A stretch of 46,294 bases of DNA, from the NCBI GenBank assembly GCA_027324255.1, contig DAHVTI010000406.1, forward strand, positions 1 through 46,294. Direction: 5' to 3'. The notes below the pieces were generated by a model. It saw only the letters and a list, made by a program, of their open reading frames with translations. It did not search any database and was not told the DNA's origin. The position numbers and the translations under genes are program-made. Source of the stretch: Bryobacterales bacterium. Lineage in GTDB: Bacteria > Acidobacteriota > Terriglobia > Bryobacterales > Bryobacteraceae. This document shows positions 3,606 through 30,039 of the stretch, in pieces (the stretch's first letter is position 1; each line of letters starts with the position of its first letter).

Positions 3606-3633
3606 TCCTGCGCAACGGGGGCGCGCGGCCGGG
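3525..3633 (+). repeat. Junction repeat, copy A (addB 3' end plus start of reductase)
   Basis: These 109 bases align without gaps to 5312-5420, with 91 identities by hand count. The repeat covers the last 27 codons of the AddB-like gene and, in an overlapping second frame, the first 20 codons of the FMN reductase. Both reading frames are recognisable in both copies, so the copies are old and diverged rather than a fresh target-site duplication. Confidence 0.8.
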
Positions 3634-3712: not shown

Positions 3713-3810
3713 AGGCCAAGCTCGCGAGGGCCAACCGGGCCCTCGTCAAACGGCCTGACCTCCATCCGGCACGGATGTGATGTGGGTCTGCCTGTGAACA
3801 GGACTGCGAG

Positions 3811-5046
3811 CTAGGCCATGTTTTCGATGATGGCCGTCGCAAATTCGGAGGTCTTGACCTTCGTTGCGCCTTCCATCTGGCGGTGGAGGTCGTAGGTGAC
3901 CTTTTTCTGGGCAATGGCCCCGGTGATGCCCTTCTCGATGAGAGCAGCAGCCTCTTTCCATTTCATGAATTCGAACATCATGATGCCGGAGAGCATGACG
4001 CTGGACGGGTTGATGACGTCGAGGTCCGCGTACTTGGGCGCGGTGCCGTGGGTGGCTTCGAAGATGCCGTGCTGGTCGCCGATGTTGGCTCCCGGGGCCA
4101 TGCCGAGTCCGCCGACCTGGGCGGCGCAGGCATCGGAGAGGTAGTCGCCATTGAGGTTCGGCGTGGCAAGAACGTCATACTCGTCGGGGCGCAGGAGGAC
4201 CTGCTGGAAGATGGAGTCGGCGATGCGATCCTTGACGAGAAGCTTCCCGGCGGGCAGATCGCCGGAGAGTTCAGATTCGGGGATACAGACATCGGCGAAC
4301 TCTTCCTTGACGAGCTCATAGCCCCAGTCGCGGAAGGCGCCCTCGGTGAACTTCATGATGTTGCCCTTGTGGACGAGGGTCACCGATTTTCGGCCGTTGG
4401 CAAGGGCGTATTTGATGGCCTGGCGGATGAGACGTTTGGAACCGGTAACGCTCATGGGCTTGATGCCGATGCCGGAGTCGGGGCGAATCTTGGCGCCCAT
4501 TTCCTGCGTGAGGAAGTCGATCACTTTTTTGGCTTCGGGGGTGCCCTCGCGGTATTCGATGCCGGCGTACACGTCCTCGGTGTTTTCCCGGAAAATGACA
4601 ACATCCAGTTTTTCGGGCCGCTTCATGGGTGAGGGGACACCGGTGTAGTATTTGACCGGCCGCTGGCAAACGTACAAGTCGAGGATCTGACGCAGAGAGA
4701 CGTTCAGGCTGCGGATCCCGCCGCCGACAGGCGTGGTGAGCGGGCCCTTGATGGCGATGTGAAAGCGCGTGATGGCGTCGAGAGTGTCCTGGGGAAGCCA
4801 ACTTTGGACGGCGTTGAAGGCTTTCTCGCCGGCGAGAACTTCGAACCAGGCGATTTTGCGCTTGCCGCCGTAGGCCCTTTCCACCGCGGCGTCAAAGACG
4901 CGGCGCGAGGCCTTCCAGATGTCCCGCCCGATGCCATCGCCCTCGATGAAGGGAATGATGGGATTATCCGGAATTGTCCACGTGCCATTCTCGACGCGGA
5001 TCTGAGCGCCATCAACGGGTACTGGGATTGAGTTGTATGATTCCAT
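3811..5046 (-). CDS. icd: NADP-dependent isocitrate dehydrogenase (E. coli type)
   Basis: Oxidative decarboxylation of isocitrate to 2-oxoglutarate in the TCA cycle. The 411 residues match the length of the E. coli-type enzyme. Seen: [12 protein letters not shown] near the N-terminus, the substrate and phosphorylation-loop region [30 protein letters not shown], and HGTAPKYAD, where Lys-Tyr marks NADP use in this family. ATG 5046 has AGAGGAAG eight bases upstream. A promoter-like TTGGAC-N18-TATACA lies at 5159-5130 on the same strand. It is a single gene, opposite in strand to its neighbours, sitting between the two copies of the addB/reductase junction. A second, structurally different isocitrate dehydrogenase lies at 8685. 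Confidence 0.96.
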
Positions 5047-5129: not shown

Positions 5130-5159
5130 TGTATAGCATTGCGGACAAGCAGAGTCCAA
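5130..5159 (-). promoter_or_regulatory. Sigma70-like promoter for icd
   Basis: On the minus strand, -35 TTGGAC (5159-5154), an 18-base spacer and -10 TATACA (5135-5130). This leaves a leader of about 75-80 bases before the icd ATG at 5046. Called from sequence match alone. Confidence 0.5.
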
Positions 5160-5311
5160 CGTCTGGTTCCGGCTCTGGTGCGCGCTGCAAATCCCGCAAC
5201 GAACAGGCATCCACAATGTGCCATCCCGGACCGGTCTTTTGCAGCTCTCAGGACCAGGACGCCATCCAGGAGCGGATGGGGACGCGGAGCGTGCTGAGAG
5301 CCCAAGGGAAA

Positions 5312-5392
5312 ACGTGCGACTACTGCGCCTTTGCGGACGGCTGCCGCATCCAAGAGGGGCAATGGCTGAAGACACGGGAAGCATCCGAGTGA
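5312..5392 (+). pseudogene. Relic of the AddB-like C-terminus
   Basis: The frame encodes TCDYCAFADGCRIQEGQWLK and stops at TGA 5390-5392, the same position relative to the repeat as the stop of the intact gene at 3603-3605. It retains the Cys-x2-Cys-x5-Cys of the Fe-S staple. Upstream (5129-5311) the frame stays open but is no longer recognisably AddB. It overlaps the start of the FMN reductase at 5362. Bases 5047-5311 otherwise hold only the icd leader and promoter. Confidence 0.6.
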
Positions 5393-5420
5393 TCCTGATC
5401 AACGGCAGCGCGCGTCCGGG
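5312..5420 (+). repeat. Junction repeat, copy B
   Basis: Partner of 3525-3633 (91 of 109 positions identical by hand count). In this copy the reductase half is intact and the AddB half is a relic, the reverse of copy A. Confidence 0.8.
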
Positions 5421-5967
5421 CAACTACACGGGCAAGGCGCTGGCGCTGGTAGAGAACGAGTTTCGCAAACACGGGCAGGTGCAGGCGGAAGTGATCGAGG
5501 CGGGCCGGCTGGGTCTGCCGCTGCCTGGCACGGACCCGGACAACGCCGCGGCCAAATTGCTGCGGGAGAAAGTGCGGGGGGCCGCGGCGGTAGTGCTGGC
5601 GACGCCGGAGTATCACGGGAGCTATTCGAGCGTGATCAAGCTGGCGGTGGAGAACCTGGGGTTCCCGTCGGTGCTGGCGGGCAAGCCGGTGGCGCTGCTG
5701 GGGGTGGCGGCGGGCACGATTGGCGCGGTGAAGTCGCTGGAGGCGCTGCGCGGGGTGGTGTCGCACGTGGGCGCGCTGGCGCTGCCGCTGGCGGTCTCCG
5801 TGGCCAACGTGCAGAAGGTGTTCGACGAGCAGGGCAACTGCCTGGACGCGGGCGTGGAGCGGCACGTGCGCCGCGTCGCGACGGGCCTCATGGATTACCT
5901 GCACCAGCACGTGTGCCCGGCGGTGACGCTGGAACGGCTGCTGCGGGAAGGCGTGGCGGCGGTTTAG
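5362..5967 (+). CDS. NADPH-dependent FMN reductase family protein
   Basis: Flavodoxin-fold oxidoreductase of 201 residues (PF03358-type). The phosphate-binding loop INGSARPGNYT is near the N-terminus, and the flavin-binding segment ATPEYHGSYSSVIKLAVE sits mid-protein, followed by LAGKPVALLGVAAG. Such enzymes reduce FMN, quinones or metals with NAD(P)H; the substrate cannot be told from sequence. ATG 5362 was preferred to the upstream start at 5218 because AGAGGGG lies 3-9 bases before it and the fold begins there. The start lies inside the relic AddB C-terminus, so the ancestral pair overlapped by about 30 bases. Its stop codon overlaps the stop of the convergent S46 peptidase gene. Confidence 0.88.
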   Translation: MAEDTGSIRVILINGSARPGNYTGKALALVENEFRKHGQVQAEVIEAGRLGLPLPGTDPDNAAAKLLREKVRGAAAVVLATPEYHGSYSSVIKLAVENLGFPSVLAGKPVALLGVAAGTIGAVKSLEALRGVVSHVGALALPLAVSVANVQKVFDEQGNCLDAGVERHVRRVATGLMDYLHQHVCPAVTLERLLREGVAAV

Positions 5968-8033
5968 CGCGCGGGGGCGGCGCCCAGCTCCTTGAGCAGG
6001 GTGTCCGCCTCCTCGACGTCCTTCAGCAGCCAGAGGAAGAAGCGGATGTCGACGTTGACGTTGCGGGCGATGTCGGGGTTGTAGCCGAAGTCGTTGGCGA
6101 CATTTTCCCAGACGCGGTCGAAGTTGAGGCCGACGAGTTCGCCGCGGCCGTTGACGGTGGGGCTGCCGGAGTTGCCGCCGGTGGTGTCGGCGTCGGCCAG
6201 GAAGTCGAGCGGGATTTTGGCGGGGTCGATGCGCGCGGCGGCCTCGCGGACGGAGGCGGGGACGTCGAAGGGCTCCTCGCCGGTGTCCTTTTCGAGCATG
6301 CCGGCGAGGGTGGTCTGCGGGGTGCAGAAGACGCCGTCGCGGGGCGAGTAGCCCTTCACGTGAGCGAAGCTGACGCGGAGGGTGGAGTTGGCGTCGGGGG
6401 CGACGGGCTTGCCGGCGAAGGCGATGACGGCGCGGCGCCAGGCGGGGCGGAGGCGGGCGACGGCGCCGTCGTCCTGCTTGTTGGCCTGATCGAGGGCGCG
6501 CAGGGCGGGATCGAGGGCGAAGGCGAGATCGAGCAGGGGGTCGTGGCGGGCGCGGAGCTGCTCCGTGGTTTCGGTGAACATCTTCAGGCGCCCCGTGAGT
6601 TCTGTCACCTTGGTGGAAGCGTAGAGCGCATTGACATCCGGAGCGGAGGCGAGCGGCGACTGCCCGGCGGCCTGCAGGCGGCGCAGCAGGGAGGAGAGCA
6701 GGGCCACGTCGGCCGGCTCGAAGAAGCTCTTCTGGTCGCGCTCCAGCCGGTCGCGCAGACGGGGCAATTCGCGCTCCATGTACGCGGCGTCGCGCTCCAT
6801 GTCTGGTTTGACGCGTTCGGCGGCGAGGCGCACGAGTTGGGTGGCCTGGCGCAGGGCGATGGGGCCGTTGGCGATGCTCGCCAGCAGGAAGTCGCGCACG
6901 GCGGTGGCGCGGCGCTTTTCGGTGAGGGCGTCGAGCTCGTTTTTGGCGGCGACGGCGGGAGCGAAGGCGGGGCGCTGGGCGGCCCAGGCCAGGACGCGGG
7001 CTTCGAGCTGGGCCTGCTTCTCGATGATGCGGCCGCGCTTGAGGCCGGCCAATTGCCCCTGCGCGTTCTTGGCGACGTTGTTGAGACCCTTCTGGGTGGA
7101 CGCCACGGCGATGGTGCCGGCGGCGCTGCCGCGCGTGGTCTCATCGAGCAGGCGGATCCATTCGCCGTACACCTCGGCGCGCAGCGCGAAATACGAGTCG
7201 CGCTGGCCGGCCATCTCGGCGGCAGTCAGCGAACGGACGGTGCGGCCGGGGTAGCCGAGGACCATGACGAAGTCGCCGGGCTTGACGCCGGCTGTGGAGA
7301 CGGGGAAGAAGAACTCGGGGCGGTAGGGTTTGCCGTCGAGGTAGGCGCGGGCGACGGAGAAATCGCCGGTATGGCGCGGCCACATCCAGTTGTCGATCTC
7401 GCCGCCGAACTCTCCGATGGCGCGCGGGGGAGCGTAGACGAGGCGGATGTCGGAGAGCTCGAACGACTCGATGAGGACGTATTGCAGGCCGCCGTCGAAA
7501 GCGGCCACGCGGCAGCGGGCTCCGGGCTTCTTCTCGCACGCGGCGACAAGTTCCTTCTCCTTCGCGTCGATGGCCTTGTTGCGGGCGAGATCGTCCGCGC
7601 CGGTGGGCACGGCCGCCTCCACTTGCTTTGTGACATCGGTGAATTTGCGGGGCACGGTGACGCGCGTGGTCTTGCCGGGTAGCTCCTCTTGCAGGGTGCG
7701 GGCCAGGAAACCGTTGGTGATGAGGTCCCGGTCCGGGCGGCTATACTCCTGGACGAGGGCAAAGAGGCAGTGATGGTTGGTGAGAATGAGTCCGGTGGCG
7801 GAGACGAAGCCGGCGGAGCAGCCGCCGATATTAACCGTGGCGGCCAGCAGGCGGGTGCCGCGGGCGGGATCCCAGAGGCGGGAAACCGGGATCTGGAGGC
7901 CCTGGCGCTGAAGGGCGGCGGTGTCGAGCTGGAGCACCTGCTGGGGGGTCCACTTCCCTTCCCCGGCCAGGACGGAAGGCAGGAGGAGGATTCCGGCCGC
8001 CAGAGTGCGAGAGAAGAAAGAACGGAAAAGCAT
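5964..8033 (-). CDS. S46 family dipeptidyl-peptidase, DPP11-like
   Basis: Exported serine exopeptidase of 689 residues releasing dipeptides from peptide N-termini. A signal peptide covers residues 1-23. The catalytic His is in TNHHC (~87), followed by DNWMWPRHTGDFS, with the nucleophile Ser ~622 in GGNSGSPT. Arg ~640 lies exactly 18 residues after the Ser, as in Porphyromonas DPP11 (Ser655/Arg673), where that Arg selects Asp/Glu at P1; DPP7 has Gly there. Cleavage after acidic residues is therefore the likely specificity (inference). Start ATG 8033 was chosen because the signal peptide begins there; the open frame continues far upstream only as a shadow. It is divergent from the gene at 8109 and convergent with the FMN reductase. 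Confidence 0.9.
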   Translation of the reverse strand: MLFRSFFSRTLAAGILLLPSVLAGEGKWTPQQVLQLDTAALQRQGLQIPVSRLWDPARGTRLLAATVNIGGCSAGFVSATGLILTNHHCLFALVQEYSRPDRDLITNGFLARTLQEELPGKTTRVTVPRKFTDVTKQVEAAVPTGADDLARNKAIDAKEKELVAACEKKPGARCRVAAFDGGLQYVLIESFELSDIRLVYAPPRAIGEFGGEIDNWMWPRHTGDFSVARAYLDGKPYRPEFFFPVSTAGVKPGDFVMVLGYPGRTVRSLTAAEMAGQRDSYFALRAEVYGEWIRLLDETTRGSAAGTIAVASTQKGLNNVAKNAQGQLAGLKRGRIIEKQAQLEARVLAWAAQRPAFAPAVAAKNELDALTEKRRATAVRDFLLASIANGPIALRQATQLVRLAAERVKPDMERDAAYMERELPRLRDRLERDQKSFFEPADVALLSSLLRRLQAAGQSPLASAPDVNALYASTKVTELTGRLKMFTETTEQLRARHDPLLDLAFALDPALRALDQANKQDDGAVARLRPAWRRAVIAFAGKPVAPDANSTLRVSFAHVKGYSPRDGVFCTPQTTLAGMLEKDTGEEPFDVPASVREAAARIDPAKIPLDFLADADTTGGNSGSPTVNGRGELVGLNFDRVWENVANDFGYNPDIARNVNVDIRFFLWLLKDVEEADTLLKELGAAPAR

Positions 8034-8057
8034 GAAAAAAATTCCTTGGCGGGCGAC

Positions 8058-8086
8058 TTCACATCTATCAGACTTCAGCATATATT
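8058..8086 (+). promoter_or_regulatory. Sigma70-like promoter for the gene at 8109
   Basis: TTCACA (8058-8063), a 17-base spacer and TATATT (8081-8086). The expected start near 8093 leaves a very short leader containing CGGAG before ATG 8109. It lies in the divergent spacer with the S46 peptidase gene. Confidence 0.55.
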
Positions 8087-8108
8087 GGTTGCGCCGGAGT
8101 AGACGAGC

Positions 8109-8600
8109 ATGACGTCCGAGATGAGGCAATGCGCGGCGGAGATTCGATACTGCTGGAAGCAGTGCGACGAATCCCTGCAGCAAGGCGACACGGAAGGCGC
8201 CAATAACGCCTTTGGGCGCGTGTTCGAGGTGGTGGACACGTTCCCCGCCCTGCTGGATGAGGACGTGTGGGCGCTGCGCTTCCTGTGCGCGCTGACGTGG
8301 GTGAAGGTGGCGGCGGCGCTGGAGGTCACCGGGCAGGATGAGTCGGCCGAGGAGGCGCGGCGCCAGGCGTTCGGGGTGATCGACGAGGTGCGGGACGAGC
8401 AGAGCGGGAAGGTGCCGCCGGGCTGGTCGTCGTTGGAGTTCGCGCGGGGGCTGGAATCGGAGGAGTCGGCCGACCTGGTGGGGCGGTTGTACCTGCTGTG
8501 CAGCAAGGCCGGGCGGCGGGACACCCTGCTGTGGGGGCGGTGCTTCATGGAGTTCGACCGCAAAGTGCACGGGGAGAACTCGCCGCCGAGCGTCAACTAG
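8109..8600 (+). CDS. Hypothetical helical protein
   Basis: 163 residues, no signal peptide, no membrane segment. The sequence is rich in Ala, Glu and Leu, with repeated helix-like blocks (YCWKQCDESLQQGDTEGANN; WVKVAAALEVTGQDESAEEA) suggesting a TPR-like alpha-solenoid. Cysteines are scattered and form no metal motif. A good sigma70-like promoter sits just upstream. It stands alone between the divergent S46 peptidase gene and the isocitrate dehydrogenase at 8685. Family not recognised and no function assigned. Confidence 0.75.
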   Translation: MTSEMRQCAAEIRYCWKQCDESLQQGDTEGANNAFGRVFEVVDTFPALLDEDVWALRFLCALTWVKVAAALEVTGQDESAEEARRQAFGVIDEVRDEQSGKVPPGWSSLEFARGLESEESADLVGRLYLLCSKAGRRDTLLWGRCFMEFDRKVHGENSPPSVN

Positions 8601-8684
8601 CGGCCCGGCCAGGGCCGGCTTGCGACTGGGCGAGCCAATGCGGCCGGGGAGATCAGAAGGGCTCCTCGAGATGGGAGCTGAATC

Positions 8685-10139
8685 ATGGCGGCGAGAACAC
8701 CCGTCACAATCGCCAGGGGCGACGGTATCGGCCCGGAGATCATGGATGCCACGCTGCACATCCTGCGGGCGGCGGGTGCGCGGATCGACGTCGAGGAGAT
8801 CGAGATCGGAGAAAAGGTCTACCTGCGCGGGAACACGGCGGGCATCGAGAGAAGGTCCATCGAGAGCCTGCTGAGGACGAAGGTCTTCCTGAAGGCGCCC
8901 ATCACGACGCCCCAGAGCGGCGGCTGCAAGAGCCTGAACGTGACGACGCGCAAGCTGCTGGGCCTGTACGCCAACGTGCGTCCCTGCGTGGCCTATGCGC
9001 CGTACGTCAGGACAAAGCACCCGGGGATGGACGTGGTGATTGTCCGCGAGAACGAAGAGGACCTCTACGCGGGCGTCGAATACCAGCAGACGCCGGACGA
9101 GACCACGGCGGTGAAGATCATCACGCGCGCCGGCTCGGAGCGCATTGTCCGCTATGCGTTCGAATACGCCAGGCGGAACAACCGCAGGAAGGTGACGTGC
9201 TTCATGAAGGACAACATCATGAAGATCACCGACGGGCTGTTCCACAGGACCTTCAACGAGATCGGCGCGCTGTACCCGGACATCCAGAAGGAAGACTGGA
9301 TTGTGGACATCGGCGCGGCCAAGTTGGCGGACACGCCGGAGCTCTTCGACGTGGTGGTGATGCCAAACCTGTACGGCGACATTCTGTCCGACGTGGCGGC
9401 GCAGATCGCGGGCTCGATCAGTCTGGCCGGCTCGGCCAACATCGGCATGAAGCACGCGATGTTCGAGGCCATCCACGGCTCCGCCCCGAGGCGCGCCAAC
9501 CAGAACCTGGCGAACCCGTCGGGGCTGCTGCTGTGCGCGGTGATGATGCTGGTCCACATCGGCCAGCCGGACATCGCGGAACTGGTGCACAACGCCTGGC
9601 TGCGCACAATGGAAGACGGCATCCACACCTACGACATCTACAAGGAAGGCATCAGTTCCCGGCAGGTGGGCACGAAGGAGTTCGCCGAGGCCGCGGCGGC
9701 GCGCCTGGGCCAGCGGCCCGAGAAGCTGAGGCCGGTGAGCTACAGCGCCGCCGCGGCGCAGACCGTGGACGCGCGCGCCGCCATCCCCGCGGCCGCAAGG
9801 CAGCGCGACCTGGTGGGCGTCGACGTGTTCGTGTACCACGAGCCGGGCGATCCGAACCGGGTGGGCGCGCTGGTGGAAGGCGTCAACGGCGACGGGCTGA
9901 AGCTGCAAGTGATCTCCAGCCGCGGCGTGAAGGTCTATCCGGAACCGCTGCCGGACACCATCACGAGCGACAGTTGGCGCTGCCGGTTCGTCAGCTCGGG
10001 CGAGAACCCGGTGATCGCGCCGCGGCAGATCCTGAGCCTGCTGGGCCGCGTGGCCGCCGCCGGGATCCCGTGGAGCAAGACGGAGCATCTGTACAACTTC
10101 GACGGCAAGCCCGGCTACTCCGCGATTCAGGGCTACTGA
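8685..10139 (+). CDS. icd: Isocitrate dehydrogenase, Thermus-type with C-terminal extension
   Basis: 484-residue isocitrate/isopropylmalate dehydrogenase family member. GDGIGPEIMDATL is at the N-terminus, followed by TTPQSGGCKSLNVTTRK, RENEEDLYAGVEYQ, MPNLYGDILSDVAAQIAG and IHGSAPRRANQNLANPSG. The last ~140 residues form an extra domain as in the ~496-residue Thermus thermophilus enzyme and are absent from E. coli Icd. Two Arg in the APRRA segment, where NAD enzymes carry Asp-Ile, suggest NADP (inference). ATG 8685 follows GGGAGCTGAATC. It is colinear with purE, 16 bases downstream of its stop. This is the second isocitrate dehydrogenase in the window, from a distinct subfamily. Confidence 0.9.
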   Translation: MAARTPVTIARGDGIGPEIMDATLHILRAAGARIDVEEIEIGEKVYLRGNTAGIERRSIESLLRTKVFLKAPITTPQSGGCKSLNVTTRKLLGLYANVRPCVAYAPYVRTKHPGMDVVIVRENEEDLYAGVEYQQTPDETTAVKIITRAGSERIVRYAFEYARRNNRRKVTCFMKDNIMKITDGLFHRTFNEIGALYPDIQKEDWIVDIGAAKLADTPELFDVVVMPNLYGDILSDVAAQIAGSISLAGSANIGMKHAMFEAIHGSAPRRANQNLANPSGLLLCAVMMLVHIGQPDIAELVHNAWLRTMEDGIHTYDIYKEGISSRQVGTKEFAEAAAARLGQRPEKLRPVSYSAAAAQTVDARAAIPAAARQRDLVGVDVFVYHEPGDPNRVGALVEGVNGDGLKLQVISSRGVKVYPEPLPDTITSDSWRCRFVSSGENPVIAPRQILSLLGRVAAAGIPWSKTEHLYNFDGKPGYSAIQGY

Positions 10140-10648: not shown

Positions 10649-11854
10649 GTGGGCAGTACACAGCGCATTCTCGTGATCGGGGGCGGGGCCGTGGGCCTCG
10701 CCTCCGCCTACCGTATTCTGCAGGCGCAGCCGGGCGCGCGGCTCACGCTGCTGGAAAAAGAGCCCGGCGTGGGGCGCCATCAGACCGGCAACAACTCCGG
10801 CGTGATGCACTGCGGCCTGGCCTACCGGCCCGGCACGGCCAAGGCGCGGCTGGCGGTGCGCGGCATCCGCCAGCTCACCGAATTCTGCATCGAGAAGGGC
10901 ATCCGGCACGACGTGTGCGGCAAGCTGGTGGTGGCGTCGCAGCCGGAGCAGGTGCCACGGCTCGACAATCTGCTGGAGCGCGGCACGGCCAACGGACTGC
11001 GCGGCCTGGAGATTCTGGACCCGGCGGGCATTCGCGACGTGGAGCCGCACGCCGGCGGGCTGGCCGCGCTGCGCGTGCCGGAGGAAGGCATTGTCGATTA
11101 CCCGGCGGTGTGCGAGAAGCTGGCGCGCGAAATTGAAGCGCTGGGCGGAAGTGTGGAGTGCGGCGCGGGCGTCGAGAAGCTGGTACGGCGCGGCGCCGAA
11201 TGGGTGGCCCGCACGCCGCGGGGCGAGTTCGCCTCGGACGTGATCGTGACGTGCGCCGGCCTGCAGGCCGACCGCGTGGCGCGCCTGGCCGGCGAGCGGC
11301 CCGAAGTGCGCATCGTGCCCTTCCGCGGCGACTACTACAAGCTGAAGCCGCACCGCGAATACCTGGTGCGCAACCTGATTTACCCCGTGGCCGACCCCAA
11401 GTTTCCGTTCCTGGGCGTGCACTTCACGCGCATGATCGCCGGCGGCATCGAGGCCGGCCCCAACGCTGTGCTGGCGCTGAAGCGCGAAGGCTACACGCGC
11501 ACGGCGTTCGACGCCGCCGACGCCTGGGACGCGCTCACCTTCCCCGGCTTGTGGCGCTTCGTCTTCCGCCACCTGCGCATGTGCGTGGCCGAGGTGGAGC
11601 GGGCGTTTTCGAAAGAGCTGTTCTGCCGCTCGCTGCAGACGCTGGTGCCGGAGGTCCAGGTGGACGACCTGGAAGAGGCCGGCGCGGGCATCCGCGCGCA
11701 GGCCATGCGGCCGGAAGGCCAACTGGTGGAGGACTTCGAGATTCTGGCGCGGCCCGCGGCGGTGCACGTGTTGAACGCGCCCAGCCCGGCGGCCACCGCC
11801 TGCCTCGCCATCGGCGAAGAGGTGGCCGCGCGGGTGGGCGCAATTCTCAACTAA
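10649..11854 (+). CDS. lhgO: L-2-hydroxyglutarate oxidase
   Basis: FAD enzyme of 401 residues that oxidises L-2-hydroxyglutarate, the wasteful reduction product of 2-oxoglutarate, back to 2-oxoglutarate. The N-terminal Rossmann motif VIGGGAVGLASAYRI is followed by LEKE, typical of DAO-fold oxidases. RHQTGNNSGVMHCGLAY and PFRGDYYKLKP are characteristic LhgO segments. Start is GTG 10649, four bases after the purE stop, with no strong RBS, suggesting translational coupling. Proximity to two isocitrate dehydrogenases fits a metabolite-repair role. It converges on the flotillin-like gene with a five-base gap. Confidence 0.92.
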   Translation: MGSTQRILVIGGGAVGLASAYRILQAQPGARLTLLEKEPGVGRHQTGNNSGVMHCGLAYRPGTAKARLAVRGIRQLTEFCIEKGIRHDVCGKLVVASQPEQVPRLDNLLERGTANGLRGLEILDPAGIRDVEPHAGGLAALRVPEEGIVDYPAVCEKLAREIEALGGSVECGAGVEKLVRRGAEWVARTPRGEFASDVIVTCAGLQADRVARLAGERPEVRIVPFRGDYYKLKPHREYLVRNLIYPVADPKFPFLGVHFTRMIAGGIEAGPNAVLALKREGYTRTAFDAADAWDALTFPGLWRFVFRHLRMCVAEVERAFSKELFCRSLQTLVPEVQVDDLEEAGAGIRAQAMRPEGQLVEDFEILARPAAVHVLNAPSPAATACLAIGEEVAARVGAILN

Positions 11855-11859
11855 GCCGC

Positions 11860-13655
11860 TCAGCCCTTTTTGACGAGCTGGGAGGCGAGCAGGGCCACCA
11901 GCGCTTCGGAGGCGGAAGAGGCCCCGTTGGCGCCGCCGGCCACCAGCACGTCGGGTGTCAGGCGGATGCCCTTGTCGGCCAGCGAGGAGAAGATCTGCAG
12001 CAGGCCGTAGTACTCGCCCATGGCCTCGACGCCCTTGCGGGCGGCTTCGGCGCGGGCCAGGCCGACAGCCTGCACGGCGCGCGCTTCGTGCTCGCCCTTG
12101 ACAGCGAGGATCTCGGCCTCGGCCGTGCCCCTGCGGCGGATGGCTTCGGATTCGCCGGCCGCGCGCGTGGACATGGCTGTCGAGTCGCCCTCAGCCTGCC
12201 GCACGGAGGCCTGTGCCTTGCGCTGCGCGATGAGAATGTTCTGCTCCTCGTTGACCAGCTCGCGCTGCTTTTCGGCCAACGCCTTCTCGGCTTCGAGCGT
12301 CTTGCGCGTCTCCTGCGCCAGGCGCTCGGCCTCGTAGGTCTTCTTCTGCTCCTCGGCCACTTGCTGGCGGTGAGCGTGTCCATCAGGGCGGCCGGCGGCG
12401 TGATGTCGCCGATGAGCGAGTCCACGCTCTGGACGTCGTATTCGAGGATGGCCTTGCTGATGTGCTCGCGGGCCTCGCGCTGACGGTCGGAGCGCGCCGA
12501 GAGGAAGTCGAGCACGGTGTAGTTCTGGGCGCTGTTGCGGAAGTAGTTCCCCACCAGCGGTTCCAGCACCTGGTTGACGAGGTTCTTCACCGAGCCGACG
12601 CGGCTGATCACCCACGGAGCCTTGGTAGCGCCGATATTGATGATCTGGCTGACGTCGAGGTTGAAGGTGAAGCCGTCGCGCGAGCGCACGGTGATGGTGG
12701 AGAGCTTCTCGTCCAGCTTGTGCGCCTCGCTGCGGGCGTTGGCCCAGTTGAGGACGATGTTGGTGGTAGGCACCAGTTCCACGCGCATGCACTCCGTGTT
12801 GAGCGGATGCTTGCCGGGATAGAGCGGCTCCGACCACACGCCCTTGCCGCCGCGCGGCACGATGTTGCCGTGCGTGAACTGCTCGCCGGAGATGTCCATC
12901 TCGTCGGAGCCGACGAAGCTGACGACGACGCCGACATGGCCGATGGGCACTTCGTAGAGCTCGGCCAGCCGCACCTCGACGAACCAGGGGTTCAGGTTGT
13001 ACTGGCCGGCCAGGATGATCTGCTCCTGCAGGCCGCGGCAGCCGCCGCGGGCGATGAACAACTCCGGCTCCTGGTAGTTCTTGTGGCCTTCGACGGCAGG
13101 CGCCGCCATCTGGCCGCGAGGCATGGACGCGCCGTCCATCGCGGTGAGGATGCCCACCTTGCCGGGCGGCACCATGGTGACGTCGGACTTGAAGACGTCG
13201 AACAGGACCAGGTTGATGCGGAACATGCCGGCGGTGAGCACGGCGCTCTGCTTGCCGCGCTGGCCGCCGTTGCGCAGGAATGCCTCGGCGTCCTGGAAGT
13301 TGTCGCACTCGACGCGGGCGGCGAGGATGCGGTCGGCAGGCAGTGCGTTGCCGTCCTTGGCGACGACGAGGCCGATCTTGCCGGGCTCGATGGTGACGAT
13401 GGGGCGCTTGTCCACGCGGTACATCCAGGGCCACAGCCAGAGGTGCAGGCCCGGTGGCAGGGTGCGCGCCTGGTAGCCGGCTTCGCCGTTGAGGGCGACG
13501 ATGCGGCCCTGCGGCATCTGCCGCGAGCTGAGCTTCTTGACGACGTGGCCCACCTGGTCCTCGCGGATGAGCACCCATCCGAGAAGGAATTTGCTGAGCA
13601 CCAGCACGGCGAGGAAGACCGCCGCGGCAAGAATGTAGACGAAATAGGTTTCCAT
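11860..13655 (-). pseudogene. Flotillin-like SPFH protein interrupted by a frameshift
   Basis: From ATG 13655 the frame encodes a membrane anchor (YFVYILAAAVFLAVLVL, residues 4-20) and a long SPFH/band-7 region to about residue 430 (DITPPAALMDTLT). It then turns into Arg-rich nonsense. The -1/+2 frame picks up immediately with RQQVAEEQKKTYEAERLAQE and continues as the flotillin coiled coil (Glu/Ala repeats) to LASQLVKKG and TGA at 11860. The break is near 12365-12372. The total span (1,796 bases) is not a multiple of three, so one indel explains it. If restored, the protein would be about 598 residues and would scaffold membrane microdomains. It is either a pseudogene or a consensus error. 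No NfeD partner is seen. Confidence 0.85.
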
Positions 13656-22819: not shown

Positions 22820-23128
22820 TCAGATGGCCTTGACCATGGCTGTGATGAGCCGCCAGGAGATGTGGAGCAGAGCGCCGAGCTCGAGGATGCGCACCAGGAA
22901 GATGACGCGCTCATTCATGAACTCGAAGCGCAGCAGCAGGGCGCAAACCACGGCCACATAGACGACGTACGGGTTCAGCACCAGTTCCAGGCTGTTCAGG
23001 TAGACGACGAGACCCAGGTAGTAAAAGAGGGGCCAACTGTTGTCCAGCCGCATGCGCGGACGCGTGACGGCCAGCCAGACGGTGGCGACCGTCAGTCCGA
23101 ACGTAGCCAGGAGGCCGATGTTTCCCAT
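22820..23128 (-). CDS. Small hypothetical membrane protein
   Basis: 102 residues with three or four hydrophobic segments (IGLLATFGLTVATVWLAV, WPLFYYLGLVVYLNSLELVL, YVVYVAVVCALLLRF, and a weaker ILELGALLHISW). ATG 23128 starts a clean hydrophobic N-terminus; the open frame upstream overlaps the barrel gene as a shadow. It follows the barrel gene on the same strand with a 22-base gap, so it is possibly the third gene of the cytochrome operon. Family not recognised. Confidence 0.7.
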   Translation of the reverse strand: MGNIGLLATFGLTVATVWLAVTRPRMRLDNSWPLFYYLGLVVYLNSLELVLNPYVVYVAVVCALLLRFEFMNERVIFLVRILELGALLHISWRLITAMVKAI

Positions 23129-23150: not shown

Positions 23151-25127
23151 CTAGAAAGTCCATAATACGCTGGTGTAGCCCGTATGCGCGCGGTAATTCT
23201 GCAGGGGGAGCAAATCTTCCCGGTAGCGGTAATACTGATAACCGGCGTTCCACCGAAGCCTGGTGTGGAGTTTGACTGAGATGCGCGCCAGCGGCGCGTC
23301 GTATTCCATGGGAAACACCTGAACGGAGGTAAGCGCCCCGAGGACGGTGCTCGCGCGCCCTGCCGCGCCGCCGGCATCGCGGGAGATGCTGAAGCCGGCG
23401 TAGAGGTCCACGCGCTCGCGCAGGGAGATGTGCAGACCCATATGGCCGGTGTGCAGGTTGCTGAGAAAGACGGACCGGCCGCCCTCGATCAGAGCCGAGG
23501 AAAGGAAGTACGCGATGCCTGTGGAAGTGTAGGCGTGGAGCTTCGCGTATCCGGCATCGAGGGAGAACCAGTCGCGCGGGTTCCAACTGACGTCGGCCGA
23601 ATAATTCCGCGAGCGGGCGCTGTGCGCGAACAGTGAGAGGGAATTGAAGTTAGCGTAGGAGCGCGCCGTGGCCGAGAACTGGAGCGGCCCGCCTCGGTAT
23701 TGGAGGCGGGCGGAAAAGGCGTGATAGTCCTTCTCCGACGTCGGGTAGAAGGGGTTGTCCTGCCGCCCTATCTCGCCGTCCAAGGCGAGGGTCAACGGCT
23801 TAACCGGCCGCAGCCGGAAGCCGGCCGATCCGGCATTGAGGCGGTTCTCCTGCTGGCTGCGCCGCCCGGCCGGGAAGCCCTCGATTTCCACCTGCTCCAC
23901 GCTGCGGATTTTGCGGGTGGAGTACTGATACCCGCCGCGCAGGGCGAGCCAGGGTTTCCACTGGAACACCCCGTCGGTCGAGTTGCTGAACATGCGGATG
24001 CCCAGGTACTGGAAGTTGATGGTGGTGAGGTTCAGCGAGGCGTTTTCGAGCTCGCGATAGGTGGAGTCGCCTTCCATGCGCGTGGCATGGAAGGCGCTGT
24101 GGTTGACGAGAGTGAGGTTGTCGTGGGGGAAGAAGCTGAGCGTGACGGCTCCGGTGGTGACGGGGCGCCGGGCGTTGCCCGAAACCAGCACCTGGCGGTT
24201 GCGCGCGGAGCCGAAACGGTCAGTACCGGCGGCCGTCTCGTCGAAGGCAAAGTCGCGGCGGCCGGCCGAGTAGGTGAAGCGGCCGTTGGCCGCCCAGCGG
24301 CGGCCGCGTTCGCGGAAGAGGTTGAGGCGGAAGGAGGGCGTCTTGCCTGCGATGGGGTCGCGCTGAGCGTAGGAGGCGAGTGTGGTGCGGTCCGCGGCGC
24401 TCGATCCGGCGGAGGCGCCGCCCAGGGACAGCGGCGAGTCTTCGCGGTACAACTCCCAGGCCTGCATCCAGTTCAGCTTCAGGCCGAACAGGACGATTTC
24501 GTTGCCGAAACGGAACTCGTTCTGCCGGCGGCGAACGGCGGCAAACAGCGGGAACTCGTCGCCGCGGGCGCCGTCGAAGAGGTTCACGGTGGCCAGCGCC
24601 GGGCCTTCCTGCGTCGAGCGGCTAAAGCCGGCGAAGAATTTCACCTTCGACTGGGGGAAGAGCGTGAAGTCGTGGTCCTGGAGGCGGCGGACGGTGTCCA
24701 TCGCGTGCTGGCCCGCCGAGATGGCGAGGGCCGGGTTGTAGTAGCCGCTGGAGCGCCATAGGGCGTCGTAGCGGTAGAGCCTGGTCTTGGCGATGCGCAG
24801 GCTGGCGGACTCGTAGGGGTCGTTGCCGAGCCCCTGGGTAAAGAGCGAGAGTTCGTCGAACGGACCGCCGTGGCCGTCGCGGGAGCGCACGCTGAGGCGG
24901 CTGCCGAGGAGCCGCACGCCGTTGCCGAAATTGACGTCGCTGCGGTACTTGCCGAGGTTCCCGCCGGAGGACACGAAGCGGTAGCCGAGTTCCCAGTCCT
25001 GGACGATGTTGTAGTTGCCCCGGTTGGCGCCGCGCGGCTCGCCGGTGCGCTCGGGCGTGGGCGCCACCACCTGCTGGGCCGGCAGGAGCGAGGAGAGGAC
25101 GGTGAGGAGGCAGAGCGCCGTTTTCAT
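23151..25127 (-). CDS. MtrB/PioB-like outer-membrane beta-barrel
   Basis: 658 residues. A signal peptide (MKTALCLLTVLSSLLPAQ) is followed by alternating aromatic/polar beta-strands throughout and a terminal ...YTSVLWTF, ending in Phe as outer-membrane barrels do. Length matches the 650-700-residue MtrB/PioB family, whose barrel sheathes a decaheme cytochrome to carry electrons through the outer membrane. The N-terminal CxxC of Shewanella MtrB is absent. Start and stop of the two genes overlap (ATGA at 25124-25127) with the decaheme cytochrome gene just upstream, which is the main support for this role. Other porin families cannot be excluded from sequence alone. Confidence 0.75.
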   Translation of the reverse strand: MKTALCLLTVLSSLLPAQQVVAPTPERTGEPRGANRGNYNIVQDWELGYRFVSSGGNLGKYRSDVNFGNGVRLLGSRLSVRSRDGHGGPFDELSLFTQGLGNDPYESASLRIAKTRLYRYDALWRSSGYYNPALAISAGQHAMDTVRRLQDHDFTLFPQSKVKFFAGFSRSTQEGPALATVNLFDGARGDEFPLFAAVRRRQNEFRFGNEIVLFGLKLNWMQAWELYREDSPLSLGGASAGSSAADRTTLASYAQRDPIAGKTPSFRLNLFRERGRRWAANGRFTYSAGRRDFAFDETAAGTDRFGSARNRQVLVSGNARRPVTTGAVTLSFFPHDNLTLVNHSAFHATRMEGDSTYRELENASLNLTTINFQYLGIRMFSNSTDGVFQWKPWLALRGGYQYSTRKIRSVEQVEIEGFPAGRRSQQENRLNAGSAGFRLRPVKPLTLALDGEIGRQDNPFYPTSEKDYHAFSARLQYRGGPLQFSATARSYANFNSLSLFAHSARSRNYSADVSWNPRDWFSLDAGYAKLHAYTSTGIAYFLSSALIEGGRSVFLSNLHTGHMGLHISLRERVDLYAGFSISRDAGGAAGRASTVLGALTSVQVFPMEYDAPLARISVKLHTRLRWNAGYQYYRYREDLLPLQNYRAHTGYTSVLWTF

Positions 25128-26053
25128 CGGGTCAGGCTCCGGGAGGAATTCGAACCGTGGATTCGCAGGTGGCAGGAGGTGCAGTTGCGGAAGCGCGGAT
25201 CGGCGAGGTTGTGGGTGCTGGGGGTCAGGGTGACGCCGTCGTCCTGGCGGCCGAACCCGGCGACTCCGTTGTGGCACTCCAGGCAGAGCGTAAAGACCAC
25301 TGGACGCTTGAGCAGGCGGGCGTTGGCGGTGCCGTGCGGCACGTGGCAGGAGGAGCAGCCTTCCACGCGCACGGCCGGATGCTCGAAGGCGAACGGCCCG
25401 CGTTTGTCGTTGTGGCACCTGAGGCAGGGCTCTTCGTTGCCGAGGGCCGCGTCCACCATGCGGGGCCGCGCGCCCATGGCACGGCTGGGAGCGGGCGCGC
25501 CGTGTGGATTGTGGCAATCCGTGCAGGTCATGAAGCCCTCATTGACGCGATGCCGGGAGGGCTGGGCGAACTGCGCCCTGATATTGGCGTGACAGCCGTA
25601 GCAGACGTCGCGCTGGTCACGGGTGAGCAGCGCCTTCTGGGTTCTGGCCTTGTGGATGGAGTGGCAGGAGTTGCAGGCGACGCCCGCCAGCGAGTGCGAC
25701 GAACGGCGGATGGCGGCGCGGCCCAGGCTTTCGGCGTGGCAGCGGAGGCAGTTGTCGAGCACCTGCTTCGGGGCCAGTTCGGAGAAAGCGGTAATTTTCG
25801 CTTTGTCGCCTTTGGCGGCCACGTGCTCGCTGGCCGGGCCGTGACAGCCTTCACAGCCGGTGCGTTCCGGCGGTTCCGTTCCCAGCGCGATCGTTTTGTG
25901 GTGAGGATTGCGGTAGAAATCCGCGCTGATTGCCGGGTGGCAGGTGCGGCAGACGGCGCTGCCGGCATACTGCGGCGCGGCCTGGAGCGGACCTGCCGGC
26001 AGGCCCAGCGCCGCGCAATAAAACACGAGCGGAAGCCCCTTGCATCGCTTCAT
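25124..26053 (-). CDS. Decaheme c-type cytochrome (DmsE/MtrA/PioA family)
   Basis: 309 residues with a signal peptide (~1-25) and exactly ten CxxCH heme-binding motifs: CRTCH, CEGCH, CLRCH, CNSCH, CYGCH, CTDCH, CLRCH, CSSCH, CLECH and CTSCH. Ten hemes in ~310 residues, with many distal His (HPHGAP, HPAVRVEG), is the MtrA/PioA signature. It would move electrons from the periplasm through the barrel encoded next door. The two genes overlap by four bases. No MtrC-like outer cytochrome, CymA or terminal reductase is in the window. The start at 26053 has a weak RBS. Confidence 0.9.
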   Translation of the reverse strand: MKRCKGLPLVFYCAALGLPAGPLQAAPQYAGSAVCRTCHPAISADFYRNPHHKTIALGTEPPERTGCEGCHGPASEHVAAKGDKAKITAFSELAPKQVLDNCLRCHAESLGRAAIRRSSHSLAGVACNSCHSIHKARTQKALLTRDQRDVCYGCHANIRAQFAQPSRHRVNEGFMTCTDCHNPHGAPAPSRAMGARPRMVDAALGNEEPCLRCHNDKRGPFAFEHPAVRVEGCSSCHVPHGTANARLLKRPVVFTLCLECHNGVAGFGRQDDGVTLTPSTHNLADPRFRNCTSCHLRIHGSNSSRSLTR

Positions 26054-26141: not shown

Positions 26142-26789
26142 TTACCAGACGTAGCTCAGGCTGACCATCGGCATGAAATTGATGTACCAGCCGCTGAGGG
26201 AGCCCGTGACCGGGGTGATGACCTTGGTGGGCGTTTCGGTGAGGAACAGCCGCACCTCGGCGCGGATGTGGGACTTGTTGCCCGTGGCGATGCGCACGCC
26301 GCCGCCGGCGGTGATGAGCGGCTTCCACTCGCTGGTATTGGTGAGCACGGCGATGGAACCGAGCGGCTGAATGGCGATGGCGTCGCCGGTGCCGGTGTAC
26401 TGCTTCATACCGCCGCCGACAAGGACATAAGGCCGCGTGCCGGAGTTCTTGCCGTTGAAGTAGACGCTGAGGTCGTAGTGGATAGCCTGGGTCCTGCCGC
26501 CCATGGTGAAGTTGCGGCTGAGGCCGGACAGCTCCATCTCATTCGACTGCCAGGTGTAGCGGAGCTCACCGCCGAGCCGGTTGCCGATCTGGCCGACATA
26601 GGCGCTGAAGCCGTAGCCCGGTTTGAACTTCGCATCGACGCTGCCAGCCGCGGCGCTGATGGATTTGCTGCCGTAGATCGACGCGCCGCCGCCGGCTCCC
26701 ACTTCCCACTGCTGCCCGTATGCCGCCGGCGCGATGGCCGCGATGAGCCCGGCGACGGTGATGAAGGACGCGATTCTGAAACAAAACAT
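26142..26789 (-). CDS. Small outer-membrane beta-barrel protein
   Basis: 215 residues: signal peptide (~1-25, ending AAYGQ), then amphipathic strands with Gly-rich turns (WEVGAGGGASIYGS; LSVYFNGKNSGTRPYVLVGGG; HIRAEVRLFL) and a C-terminal MVSLSYVW ending in Trp. This resembles the eight-stranded OmpA/OmpX-like barrel domain. Specific role unknown. It sits between hairpins at 26073-26099 and 26864-26884, so it is likely monocistronic. Confidence 0.8.
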   Translation of the reverse strand: MFCFRIASFITVAGLIAAIAPAAYGQQWEVGAGGGASIYGSKSISAAAGSVDAKFKPGYGFSAYVGQIGNRLGGELRYTWQSNEMELSGLSRNFTMGGRTQAIHYDLSVYFNGKNSGTRPYVLVGGGMKQYTGTGDAIAIQPLGSIAVLTNTSEWKPLITAGGGVRIATGNKSHIRAEVRLFLTETPTKVITPVTGSLSGWYINFMPMVSLSYVW

Positions 26790-26894: not shown

Positions 26895-29800
26895 TCAGTC
26901 GATGACGCGGACCGACACGGAGCTCGAGTAGCCGCCCTGCCTGATCTGGAGGGTCTGGTTCATGCCTTTGGGCACGGTCCAAGGCACGGCAACCTTGATT
27001 TCGTAGACGCCCACCTGGCCCGGCACGAGTCCGGCGTTGGCGATCGGCAGGCTGAAGCCGTTGATGGTCACTTCAGGCTGGGTGAGAACCTGGACGTCCG
27101 AGGGGGCTGGGGTACCCGCCGGGATCTCGGGATCGGTCTTACCCATGCCGGTCAGGTAGATGAAGAGCTCATCGTTGCTGCGGACGGGGTTGGAGGGTGT
27201 GACCACCTGGCCGTTATCGGCGCGAACCACCGTGGGCACTTCGTAGTCCTCGGCCAGCGGGGTTCGGAAGACGCTCGGGGCCGTGGGCAGGATCGTCAGG
27301 TTGTAGTTGTCGCTGACGCCGCCGGGCGTGCGCAGCACCATGGTCACGTTGCCTTCGGCCTGGAACGGCAGTTGGGCGTTGATCTGGCTGGAGGAGACCA
27401 TGAGCATCGGGACCGGCATGCCGTTCACGGTGAGGCAGCTCTCGCCGAGAGCGGTGGGCAGGGGCACCTCGCGCGTGGCGATGTTGACCGGGCTGAGGTC
27501 CTGGCCTTCGACGATGATCAGTCCGCCGGGCGCCACGGCGCGCGAGCGGTCGGCCGCGTTGGTGACGCGGGAGATGCGGGGGATCGCGGTGGCGGCATCG
27601 TACTCCCAGGCGACCACGGTGAAGCCGGAGGTGGTGAGGTTGACGATGGCGGTCCGCCCCGGCAGGACGGCCAGGGTCCGGGTGAACGCGCTCCGCGTAT
27701 CGCCGAGCAGCGGAGCTTCCACGATGCGGGTGGCGGCGATGCCGCTGTTGCTGCCGAAGCTCACGCGCTGGATGGCGCCCGGGCTATCGGCGGTCAGAGC
27801 GCCGGTCCGAAGTCCTCCGTCATCCACGAAGACGAAGCCGGAAGGCAGCCCCACCTCGCTGTCGAAGGTGCGCACGGGCACCAGCGAGGCGTTGTAGAGT
27901 GTGTTGCCGATCACGTACTGATCGAAGCTGGACGCCGCCAGGGCGCCGGCCAGCGCCGCGCTTTCCTTGCGCGAGATGGTGAAGGTGTCGGCATTCGCGT
28001 TGTAGAGCAGGACGTTTCCATCGGCCTGCGCGGCCAGGATGGTGCCGCCGTTGGACGAGGCGGCGAGAGCCGTGTTCAGGTCGATGCTGTTGTCGAAGAC
28101 GCCCAGAGTAGGCAACTCGGTGGCCGTGCGGCTGAAGAAGTCCACGCGGTCGATGGTGTTCTTGGGCCCAGCCACGCGGGTAGCCGCCAGGATGGCTTTG
28201 GCCGACGCCGCCAGGTAGCGCGGATAGTGGCCGAAGGGGAATCGGATGGGCGCCTGCTGCTCGAAAGTTTCCAGGTCGTACACGTTGGCGTACTGGGAGT
28301 TGTCGTTCCCAATCAGGAGGTACTTGCGGTCGAAGGTGAAGGCCATGGAATACGGGGTGTTGCCCGTGCGCAGCGTGGCGATCTGGGTATAGTCGCTGCC
28401 GTCGAAGACCAGCACTTCGTTGGTGTCCTGCCGCAGCACGAAGAAGCGGTTGCGGAAAGGATCGGCCAGAATGTCCACCAGTTTCCCGGGGACGTTGGCG
28501 ATGACGCCGCGCTGGTCCGGGTCCTGCAGGTTGACGAGGACGCGGATGGGCTGCGGAATGTTCACGGCGGAGGAAGAGCGCAGGACGATCTGCGTCGAGA
28601 GCGTCCCCTTCTGGTTCTGGAAGGAAGCCGGATCGATGGATACCTGAACGGTGGCCGGGGTCACGCCGCGGCTGGGAGAGATGCGGACGCCGGCGGTGGC
28701 GGTAGAAAGCGAAAATTCGGTCTCCGCGCCGCTCGGATCGACGATGGTCAGCTCCTGCGTAACCACACCGGAGTTGCAGAAAGAGCTGCGGAACAGCAGG
28801 TTCGGCTGCACGGCCGCAACGCGCGGGCTGGAATTGAGCGAACCCACCGGAAGCACGGTCACGCCGCTCTCCGACAGGGCGTACATCATCGAGCCGTCAG
28901 CCGACAGGAGGCCCTTGCCTGACAGGTGTTCGGCCAGCTTCAACCTCTCGCGGACCGTGAGGTTGTCGGCGTCGGCCACCATCAGGACCGGCGGCGACAG
29001 CGTCTCCGTCGACGTGCTGGAGGACGAGGAGGATCCGGAAGAGGAACTGCTCGAGGAGGACGATGTGGTGACGACACCCTCGGGAACTTCGGCGTAGACG
29101 ATGCCGCGATCGGAATCGATCGCGTGCGACCCGACCTCGAGCTTGCCGAGCGGATTGGGGAACTGGTTCAAGGCGCTGCGCCGGTCGAACATCGCCCAGC
29201 CGGCGATGTAGTAGGAGCCGTCGCGCGACACGCTCATCGCCCGGGGGCCGAGCGGCGGATCGGCGACATAGCCGACCGATCCGACCGTCCTGGCTGCGAC
29301 GTCGTAGCTGAACAGGATGCTATCTGTAACGCCGTAGATCCAGAAGCCGTCCCCGGAGGACTGGACCGAGGCCCCAATGATCTGCGTCGGCGCCTGGGCT
29401 GGAGCCTGGGGCAGCGTCTTGGCGGCCACGCCTGCGATGGTGTCCAGCACCTCCATGGTGCCGAATTCGGGATCGAAGAGGAGGAACTGGGTGGAGGTGA
29501 CCACCAACGCCTTGCCGTCGATGCCGAACGCTACGCCGAAGGGCGGGTCCGCCAGGGAGAAGGTTCTGCGCGTGGAGCCGTCCAGTTCGATGACGCTCAG
29601 CGCGTTGCGCGGCGCGTTGGGCGCCGCGAAGTTGCCGTAGTGGCCCACCACCAGATAGCGCCCGTCGGGCGAAAGCGCCAGCGTGCTGGGCTGCGACGCT
29701 ACGTTGATCGAGCGCTCCAGTACCCCATCGGGCACAGAAACGACGTCGATCCTGTTGGCGGTAAAGTTTGCCACATAGAGCGCCCTGCGAGGCTCATCGA

Positions 29801-29915
29801 GCGCCAGGTCGGAGGCGTGGCCCCCGAGCGCGACAACCCGACCGAAAGTCTGGCCCCAGGCGCCGGCCGACATTGCCAGCCAGATCGCTGCGATCCACAT
29901 GCGAGACGTTAGCAT
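26895..29915 (-). CDS. Secreted beta-propeller protein with Solibacter-type C-terminal domain
   Basis: 1,006 residues. Signal peptide ~1-22 (AMSAGAWG/Q). The N-terminal ~300 residues carry YVTN/WD-like propeller repeats (GRVVALGGHASDLALDEP; STLALSPDGRYLVVGHYG). A poly-Ser/Thr linker follows near residue 290 (29005-29062 on the DNA). A second propeller-like region spans ~440-720. The last ~230 residues (VAPGGLIIVEGQDLSPV; AQLPFQAEGNVTMVLRTPGG; YLTGMGKTDPEIPAGTP) match the acidobacterial C-terminal domain known as TIGR03437. ATG 29915 was chosen because GAGGGAGA lies just upstream. Function unknown; probably surface-associated. Confidence 0.85.
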   Translation of the reverse strand: MLTSRMWIAAIWLAMSAGAWGQTFGRVVALGGHASDLALDEPRRALYVANFTANRIDVVSVPDGVLERSINVASQPSTLALSPDGRYLVVGHYGNFAAPNAPRNALSVIELDGSTRRTFSLADPPFGVAFGIDGKALVVTSTQFLLFDPEFGTMEVLDTIAGVAAKTLPQAPAQAPTQIIGASVQSSGDGFWIYGVTDSILFSYDVAARTVGSVGYVADPPLGPRAMSVSRDGSYYIAGWAMFDRRSALNQFPNPLGKLEVGSHAIDSDRGIVYAEVPEGVVTTSSSSSSSSSGSSSSSSTSTETLSPPVLMVADADNLTVRERLKLAEHLSGKGLLSADGSMMYALSESGVTVLPVGSLNSSPRVAAVQPNLLFRSSFCNSGVVTQELTIVDPSGAETEFSLSTATAGVRISPSRGVTPATVQVSIDPASFQNQKGTLSTQIVLRSSSAVNIPQPIRVLVNLQDPDQRGVIANVPGKLVDILADPFRNRFFVLRQDTNEVLVFDGSDYTQIATLRTGNTPYSMAFTFDRKYLLIGNDNSQYANVYDLETFEQQAPIRFPFGHYPRYLAASAKAILAATRVAGPKNTIDRVDFFSRTATELPTLGVFDNSIDLNTALAASSNGGTILAAQADGNVLLYNANADTFTISRKESAALAGALAASSFDQYVIGNTLYNASLVPVRTFDSEVGLPSGFVFVDDGGLRTGALTADSPGAIQRVSFGSNSGIAATRIVEAPLLGDTRSAFTRTLAVLPGRTAIVNLTTSGFTVVAWEYDAATAIPRISRVTNAADRSRAVAPGGLIIVEGQDLSPVNIATREVPLPTALGESCLTVNGMPVPMLMVSSSQINAQLPFQAEGNVTMVLRTPGGVSDNYNLTILPTAPSVFRTPLAEDYEVPTVVRADNGQVVTPSNPVRSNDELFIYLTGMGKTDPEIPAGTPAPSDVQVLTQPEVTINGFSLPIANAGLVPGQVGVYEIKVAVPWTVPKGMNQTLQIRQGGYSSSVSVRVID

Positions 29916-30039
29916 CGTAGTCTCCCTCACTCCACTCAGAAGTCACACTGTTTTCCAACACAACCTGGGCGCGGCGGAAGGGCCGGCCTTGCGGCACTCT
30001 CCCCGGCCCGCCGCCTCGCCCGTTCCGGACATCGCCGGG

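Follow-up and report, generated by a model that had tools for sequence, protein, structure and literature searches.

A decaheme cytochrome and an MtrB-like barrel, usually without a neighbouring MtrC, as a probable outer-membrane electron conduit in Bryobacteraceae

We examined a 46,294-nucleotide stretch of DNA from a Bryobacterales bacterium of the family Bryobacteraceae (assembly GCA_027324255.1, contig DAHVTI010000406.1, positions 1 to 46,294; hereafter, the window), which carries on its minus strand a two-gene unit encoding a c-type cytochrome with ten CXXCH motifs and an outer-membrane barrel. The two genes are as follows:

25124..26053, minus strand: decaheme c-type cytochrome, 309 aa, of the DmsE/MtrA family (TIGR03508), assigned by profile score, alignment to 6r2q_A and histidine conservation
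23151..25127, minus strand: 658-aa outer-membrane barrel with an MtrB-like predicted fold, ATG at 25127, its first 4 bases shared with the end of the cytochrome gene

An earlier note on this DNA had counted exactly ten CXXCH motifs in the 309 residues of the cytochrome, and they begin at residues 35, 67, 102, 127, 151, 177, 210, 233, 257 and 291; shuffling the protein's own residues 20,000 times gave a mean of 0.10 motifs and a maximum of 3. The cytochrome scored 260 bits against TIGR03508 (cut-off, 192.2) over model positions 1–257 of 258, and its best sequence match in the PDB was chain A of 6r2q (residues 31–303, E = 9.9e-34). The title given to this entry is 'Structure of the Mtr complex', although the PDB copy that we used labels chain A 'Cystathionine beta-synthase'; the identification of chains A and B with MtrA and MtrB is our own. 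Aligning 12 sequences (the window protein, ten relatives and a second MtrA-like protein from the same genome, on contig C182) revealed 20 invariant histidines, ten within CXXCH motifs, all of which are invariant, and ten outside them. Ten non-motif histidines for ten hemes fits one distal ligand per heme, as bis-histidine ligation would need, and their conservation suggests that they serve as the distal heme ligands.

The barrel was less readily classified. It had no Pfam match at E 1, and its sole NCBIfam match was a faint one, to the GSU2204 family NF041027 (15.8 bits; cut-off, 350). An AlphaFold2 model built from 11 sequences (predicted local distance difference test (pLDDT), 70.3; predicted template modelling score (pTM), 0.60) contained 28 strand elements; counting the three short pieces at 601–621 as a single strand brings the number down to 26. 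For MtrB, the strand count is 26 (PMC7198977). Modelling as an unrelated porin, the outcome that the earlier note had named as speaking against its proposal, was not seen. In a Foldseek comparison with solved structures the best match was 6r2q_B (template modelling (TM) score 0.61 both ways, compared with at most 0.44 in the other 49 matches listed), and VIA-align gave Z = 21.7 over 545 residues with a root-mean-square deviation of 4.8 (next Z among the matches listed, 15.0), at a sequence identity of only 12–13%. The window barrel is also related to the 707-aa barrel encoded on contig C182 of the same genome (BLASTP E = 2e-20; hhalign, 99.8%; 24–34% identity in two aligned pieces). Among the relatives, one barrel frame (L015, 8852–10798) ends about 20 residues short of the C-terminus of the other ten aligned, and its tblastn match continues past the stop.

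The cytochrome stop and barrel start share the four bases ATGA at 25124–25127, and the overlap, coordinates and gene lengths given in the earlier note were right. To describe the pair more widely we assembled 31 loci (29 distinct, with two duplicates), comprising the window, ten database loci and 20 stretches of Bryobacteraceae genomes, the last picked from the 29 best-scoring barrel rows rather than at random. Cytochrome and barrel occurred together on one strand, with match ends no more than 0.9 kb apart, in all 31 loci (29 distinct), and the cytochrome had exactly ten CXXCH motifs in 29 of 29 distinct loci. The database loci show that the pair is no accident of reading frame: they were ten of 11 found, each with a relative of the cytochrome (48–77% identity in the best segment) and an adjoining barrel, the nearest named relative being from Paludibaculum sp.; the 4-base overlap recurred in nine of the ten, as in the C182 set, with a 13-base gap in the tenth (L012). 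The eleventh locus (L019), from a GC-rich bacterial metagenome-assembled genome, gave a weak 30% match to an open reading frame (ORF) with 26 CXXCH motifs (7665–10031), and a 13-CXXCH ORF lies at 11706–12791. Within the window, only one other ORF of at least 100 aa contained CXXCH (299–964, minus strand; one motif), and with no second multiheme ORF among them no MtrC-like gene was seen, as the earlier note had said of the window. Pfam searches of ten neighbouring ORFs matched no molybdopterin oxidoreductase, so DMSO reductase subunits as in DmsEFAB were not seen beside the pair (the rest of the window and the genome were not searched for it).

The genome as a whole (G000; 6.17 Mb in 605 contigs, 97.5% complete) tells a different story about MtrC. 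Contig C182 (L020, 1976–7328) encodes, in order, an OmcA/MtrC-family decaheme protein (TIGR03507, 521 bits; ten CXXCH), a DmsE/MtrA-family decaheme protein (242.6 bits; ten CXXCH; 38% identity to the window cytochrome) and the 707-aa barrel, with the same 4-base overlap at its start. This is a full MtrCAB-like set, separate from the window pair, and the only place in the genome with an MtrC-family match over cut-off. The genome search that the earlier note had proposed for MtrC/OmcA-like or iron-oxidase genes therefore returned the former, and no high-potential iron-sulfur protein (HiPIP) of the PioC type. We rejected the idea that C182 is a contaminant: all four sampled genomes of the window's genus (G047, G100, G127 and G145), two of them assembled in 2–3 contigs, likewise carry a TIGR03507 gene, which makes MtrC a trait of the genus, and GC content is 0.644 for C182 and 0.664 for the window. 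C182 ends 33 bases past the barrel's stop codon. Elsewhere, C184 has two weak, overlapping TIGR03507 matches under cut-off (8889–9513), one with an in-frame TAA, possibly a degraded or divergent MtrC-type gene.

Similarly, the earlier note had found no CymA in the window, and the genome does hold candidate quinol dehydrogenases. Three minus-strand genes on contig C395 (L022, 493–9076; the third 2.6 kb from the other two) encode a protein of the NapC/NirT type (26.6 bits against a cut-off of 24.1) together with two multiheme proteins, which have 9 and 19 CXXCH motifs and both carry cytochrome b561-like parts, one of these parts being under the Pfam cut-off. These proteins resemble ImcH and CbcL and are candidate electron sources for either conduit. 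Contig C294 (L021) encodes a 12-CXXCH and a 3-CXXCH protein (2752–4014 and 5142–5549) at the contig edge, with a MerR/HTH_17-type gene upstream.

We next asked how often the pair type lacks an MtrC neighbour, by searching 150 Bryobacteraceae genomes with a profile built on the window-type barrel, which matched in 140 of them. Matches listed were classed as high-scoring (at least 400 bits, 114 rows) or low-scoring (under 300 bits, 35 rows), and one row at 377 bits was excluded; rows of low-scoring barrels and of weaker MtrC matches are incomplete, and the counts hold among the matches listed. High-scoring, window-type barrels were present in at least 111 of the 150 genomes, as 114 copies, and none of these had an MtrC-family gene within 3.5 kb upstream, while only one had such a gene downstream (G067, 484 bases after the barrel). 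Low-scoring barrels, in contrast, were preceded by an MtrC-family gene in 27 of 35 cases, at 969–1355 bases, a distance into which an MtrA gene would fit; the 35 include one 375-base fragment of the high-scoring type, at a contig edge in G038. Likewise, 28 of the 29 distinct pair loci had no other ORF of at least 60 aa with more than two CXXCH motifs beside the pair, G067 being the exception. There (L049, 2861–8421), a window-type pair is followed by an MtrC-family decaheme gene (ten CXXCH) in the order A-B-C, the only such case among the matches listed and a natural pairing of the window type with an MtrC.

Some genomes appear to keep the pair with no MtrC at all. TIGR03507 was over cut-off in 112 of the 150 genomes in a first search that scored up to seven candidates per genome. 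When every candidate was scored in 15 pair-carrying genomes without a match (G009, G022, G023, G024, G039, G040, G071, G074, G097, G101, G104, G106, G113, G121 and G122), none of the 15, out of 111 with a window-type barrel, matched; five further genomes without a match in the first search lay outside this rerun. Completeness reaches 90% or more and contamination stays within 5% in twelve of the 15, among them G104, which is in 4 contigs, so the pair persists without MtrC. Judged from gene neighbourhoods, an absent neighbouring MtrC is the rule for the window type and not a local gap. Across a sample of the phylum the barrel profile matched 47 of 199 genomes, all below 440 bits except the window's genome and one other of the same family.

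Taken together, we consider it very likely that the pair is an MtrC-independent outer-membrane electron conduit of the MtrAB kind, in a genome that also encodes a separate MtrCAB-like set. If the pair works as the Mtr complex does, the two proteins would form a complex in the outer membrane that conducts electrons, and the fold match to 6r2q_B together with the conserved histidines supports a heme chain inside the barrel. The ten-heme cytochrome would thread a barrel of about 26 strands so that its heme chain crosses the outer membrane. In that way electrons would pass between periplasm and outer surface, with one end of the chain supplied by periplasmic donors and the other exposed on the outside, uncapped by MtrC. 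We lean somewhat towards export of electrons over uptake, with soluble or chelated acceptors or a further surface cytochrome as the recipients; this is a judgement and not a result.

Several observations weigh against this interpretation. The predicted structure of the cytochrome had a pLDDT of 39.7 and was not used, so no model of the complex stands behind the pair, and the barrel model is itself of modest quality, with weak N-terminal strands. The MtrB/PioB model TIGR03509 gave no match to the barrel at E 1 and none in a profile search of the window's whole genome; as a control, it matched 50 of 199 genomes in the phylum sample, 21 over cut-off. Comparison of the barrel profile with four acidobacterial TIGR03509 barrels was also not significant (9.7%). 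The C182 barrel had no match to the same four (1.8%), and the TIGR03509 and GSU2204 barrel sets matched each other (99.1%). From the structural match and the TIGR03509 miss, the window barrel has a predicted MtrB-like fold and, by its sequence, is not a TIGR03509 member. The MtrA–MtrB/PioA–PioB arrangement that the earlier note had proposed for an acidobacterium thus stands as an MtrA-type decaheme with an MtrB-fold barrel, and falls short in that the barrel lies outside the MtrB/PioB family.

The strongest alternative, which we regard as possible but unlikely, is a conduit for electron uptake, like PioAB or MtoAB, in which iron(II) or another donor would be oxidised outside and electrons would run inward. 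PioAB and MtoAB are MtrAB-type pairs of iron oxidisers, and Sideroxydans and Gallionella have MtrAB homologues without MtrC (PMC8805035, PMC10654088); the window pair likewise lacks MtrC, and homologues of PioA, PioB and PioC have been reported in Acidobacteria (PMC10654088). However, HiPIP (PioC type, PF01355) had no match in the window's draft genome with 22 of 22 candidates scored, in a search that had MtoD, Cyc2 and carbon fixation outside its scope and that gave a match in the positive control, Haloferax volcanii. The same genome also has an MtrC-family set, and the excerpted text of PMC8805035 holds that MtrC-less pairs linked to iron oxidation (Pio, Mto) form no separate clades and that direction is not inferable for most such organisms.

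An MtrC-independent conduit also has to be weighed against a second outlet that borrows the C182 MtrC-type cytochrome, functionally an MtrCAB in two places. The genome does contain an MtrC-family gene, and in G067 such a gene adjoins a window-type barrel, but the C182 set has MtrA-like and barrel genes of its own and 15 of the 111 genomes with a window-type barrel lack a TIGR03507 match, making this improbable. Least credible of all, with very little chance of being right, is an ordinary porin or transporter merely co-transcribed with a periplasmic carrier cytochrome: no curated family is over cut-off for the barrel and TIGR03509 misses it, but 6r2q_B leads its fold matches by far, overlap and adjacency are conserved, and the barrel is homologous to that of an MtrC-containing set.

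The MtrC-independent pair resembles several described systems without coinciding with any of them. PMC8805035 (mBio 2022) lists MtrCAB with five hits among Acidobacteriia, and its Group 5 is Bryobacterales or unclassified. These MtrCAB systems share with the window an MtrA-type decaheme, a barrel and the host order, and the C182 set may belong to Group 5; the window pair differs in lacking MtrC and is a distant paralogue of the C182 set. A tetraheme gene downstream of mtrB is a feature of Group 5 in the excerpts of that paper, and none was seen beside the window-type pair (29 distinct loci, the window among them). The PioAB and MtoAB pairs are similar in being of MtrA–MtrB type without MtrC, but the window's genome has no HiPIP match and its barrel falls outside TIGR03509. 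Geobacter GSU2203–GSU2204 (NF041028, NF041027) likewise combines a decaheme with a barrel, and its barrel profile is closer to that of the window (moderate, 89%, E = 2e-6, six GSU2204-type barrels) than are the TIGR03509 barrels. Both window proteins nevertheless score under cut-off for these families (cytochrome, 219 of 325 bits; barrel as above), and the six aligned GSU2204-type barrels have invariant C175, C178 and H179, forming a CXXCH motif, whereas the window barrel has a single cysteine, at residue 6. Relative to the Mtr complex (PDB 6r2q), the cytochrome is homologous and the barrel fold similar, but barrel identity is low and the window locus has no MtrC gene.

Earlier reports make an MtrA homologue in the window's organism expected. 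As excerpted, they include Solibacter and Terriglobus sequences among MtrA/MtrC relatives (PMC3669403), 27 PioA/MtoA hits in Acidobacteriia (PMC10654088), where the PioA/PioB homologues of Acidobacteria may include the window-type pair, and porin–cytochrome clusters in a Holophaga (PMC7399161). In the open-licence literature we found no description of an MtrC-less pair in Bryobacteraceae, or of its frequency or site. What appears new here is the separate, nearly always MtrC-free pair type, together with its frequency and site; the kind, an MtrAB conduit, was already known.

Soils are rich in Acidobacteria, and little study has been devoted to extracellular electron transfer in this phylum. The window pair, from a soil acidobacterium, belongs to a widespread type that is related to the known iron-reduction conduits but has no surface cytochrome of the usual kind as its partner. 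More tentatively, and with rather less than even confidence, the window type could represent a distinct class of MtrC-independent conduit, common in Bryobacteraceae, with a barrel unseen by the standard MtrB model and a job other than that of MtrCAB; if so, that job might be to take up electrons or to exchange them with soluble redox compounds of the soil, to name two examples. Because the barrel type occurs in at least 111 of 150 family genomes yet is missed by TIGR03509 in the window's genome, surveys based on that model could undercount conduits. A genome with both an MtrC-less and an MtrC-bearing set, genomes with the pair but no MtrC match, and G067 also offer a natural comparison for what MtrC adds and for whether its absence goes with electron uptake.

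Finally, we examined the genomic site of the pair, which is bordered by three further minus-strand genes:

22820..23128, minus strand: hydrophobic protein of 102 aa that matches nothing in Pfam or NCBIfam at E 0.01; a conserved neighbour, kept where the pair is absent
26142..26789, minus strand: 215-aa protein with an OMP_b-brl match, the upstream border of the site; directly before the 102-aa gene in 10 pair-less loci
26895..29930, minus strand: 1011-aa protein with a Solibacter C-terminal domain (TIGR03437, NCBIfam match), the outer flank of the conserved block

The 102-aa gene followed the barrel by 20–289 bases (between match ends) in 55 of the 114 high-scoring rows among the matches listed and in 18 of the 29 distinct pair loci; in 14 of these 18, the OMP match lay 2995–3878 bases upstream of it with the pair in between. 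Thirty-three rows had a 102-aa gene that was not beside a high-scoring barrel, of which 20 were inspected. Ten of these had the 215-aa OMP match 64–277 bases upstream of the 102-aa gene and no pair in between, the other ten had no match to the OMP, pair or propeller in the stretch inspected, and no ORF of at least 120 aa in the 20 loci had more than two CXXCH motifs. In G038, one of the 33 outside the inspected 20, the 102-aa gene follows a barrel fragment at a contig edge. We considered the 102-aa protein as an obligatory third operon partner and rejected this, since the gene stays in place in ten loci where the pair is absent; it is probably not an obligatory partner. Present or missing between the OMP and 102-aa genes, the pair behaves as a self-contained unit of two genes that was gained or lost within a block conserved in other respects, at a site that is empty in related genomes; in some genomes the pair is located elsewhere.

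This history was not a simple one. A single origin of the site was rejected, as a tree of 29 barrels plus one outgroup needs five label changes (with or without the 102-aa gene), at least three of them forced by well-supported branches, so the association of pair and 102-aa gene has shifted repeatedly, with either the pair or the small gene having moved or been lost; the outgroup sits on a very long branch, which leaves the root uncertain. There is no sign of recent foreign origin, since the GC content of the pair (0.668) is near that of its flanks (0.653 and 0.655), with third-position GC of 0.84–0.88 compared with 0.88–0.90 in two neighbours. Gain and loss of the window pair is in line with the mobility of mtrCAB described in the excerpts of PMC8805035. 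The family of hydrophobic proteins of about 100 aa is present in 87 of the 150 family genomes, and the motif RFEF is invariant in 12 aligned proteins of the 102-aa type; L054, which lies outside the alignment, has RLGW.

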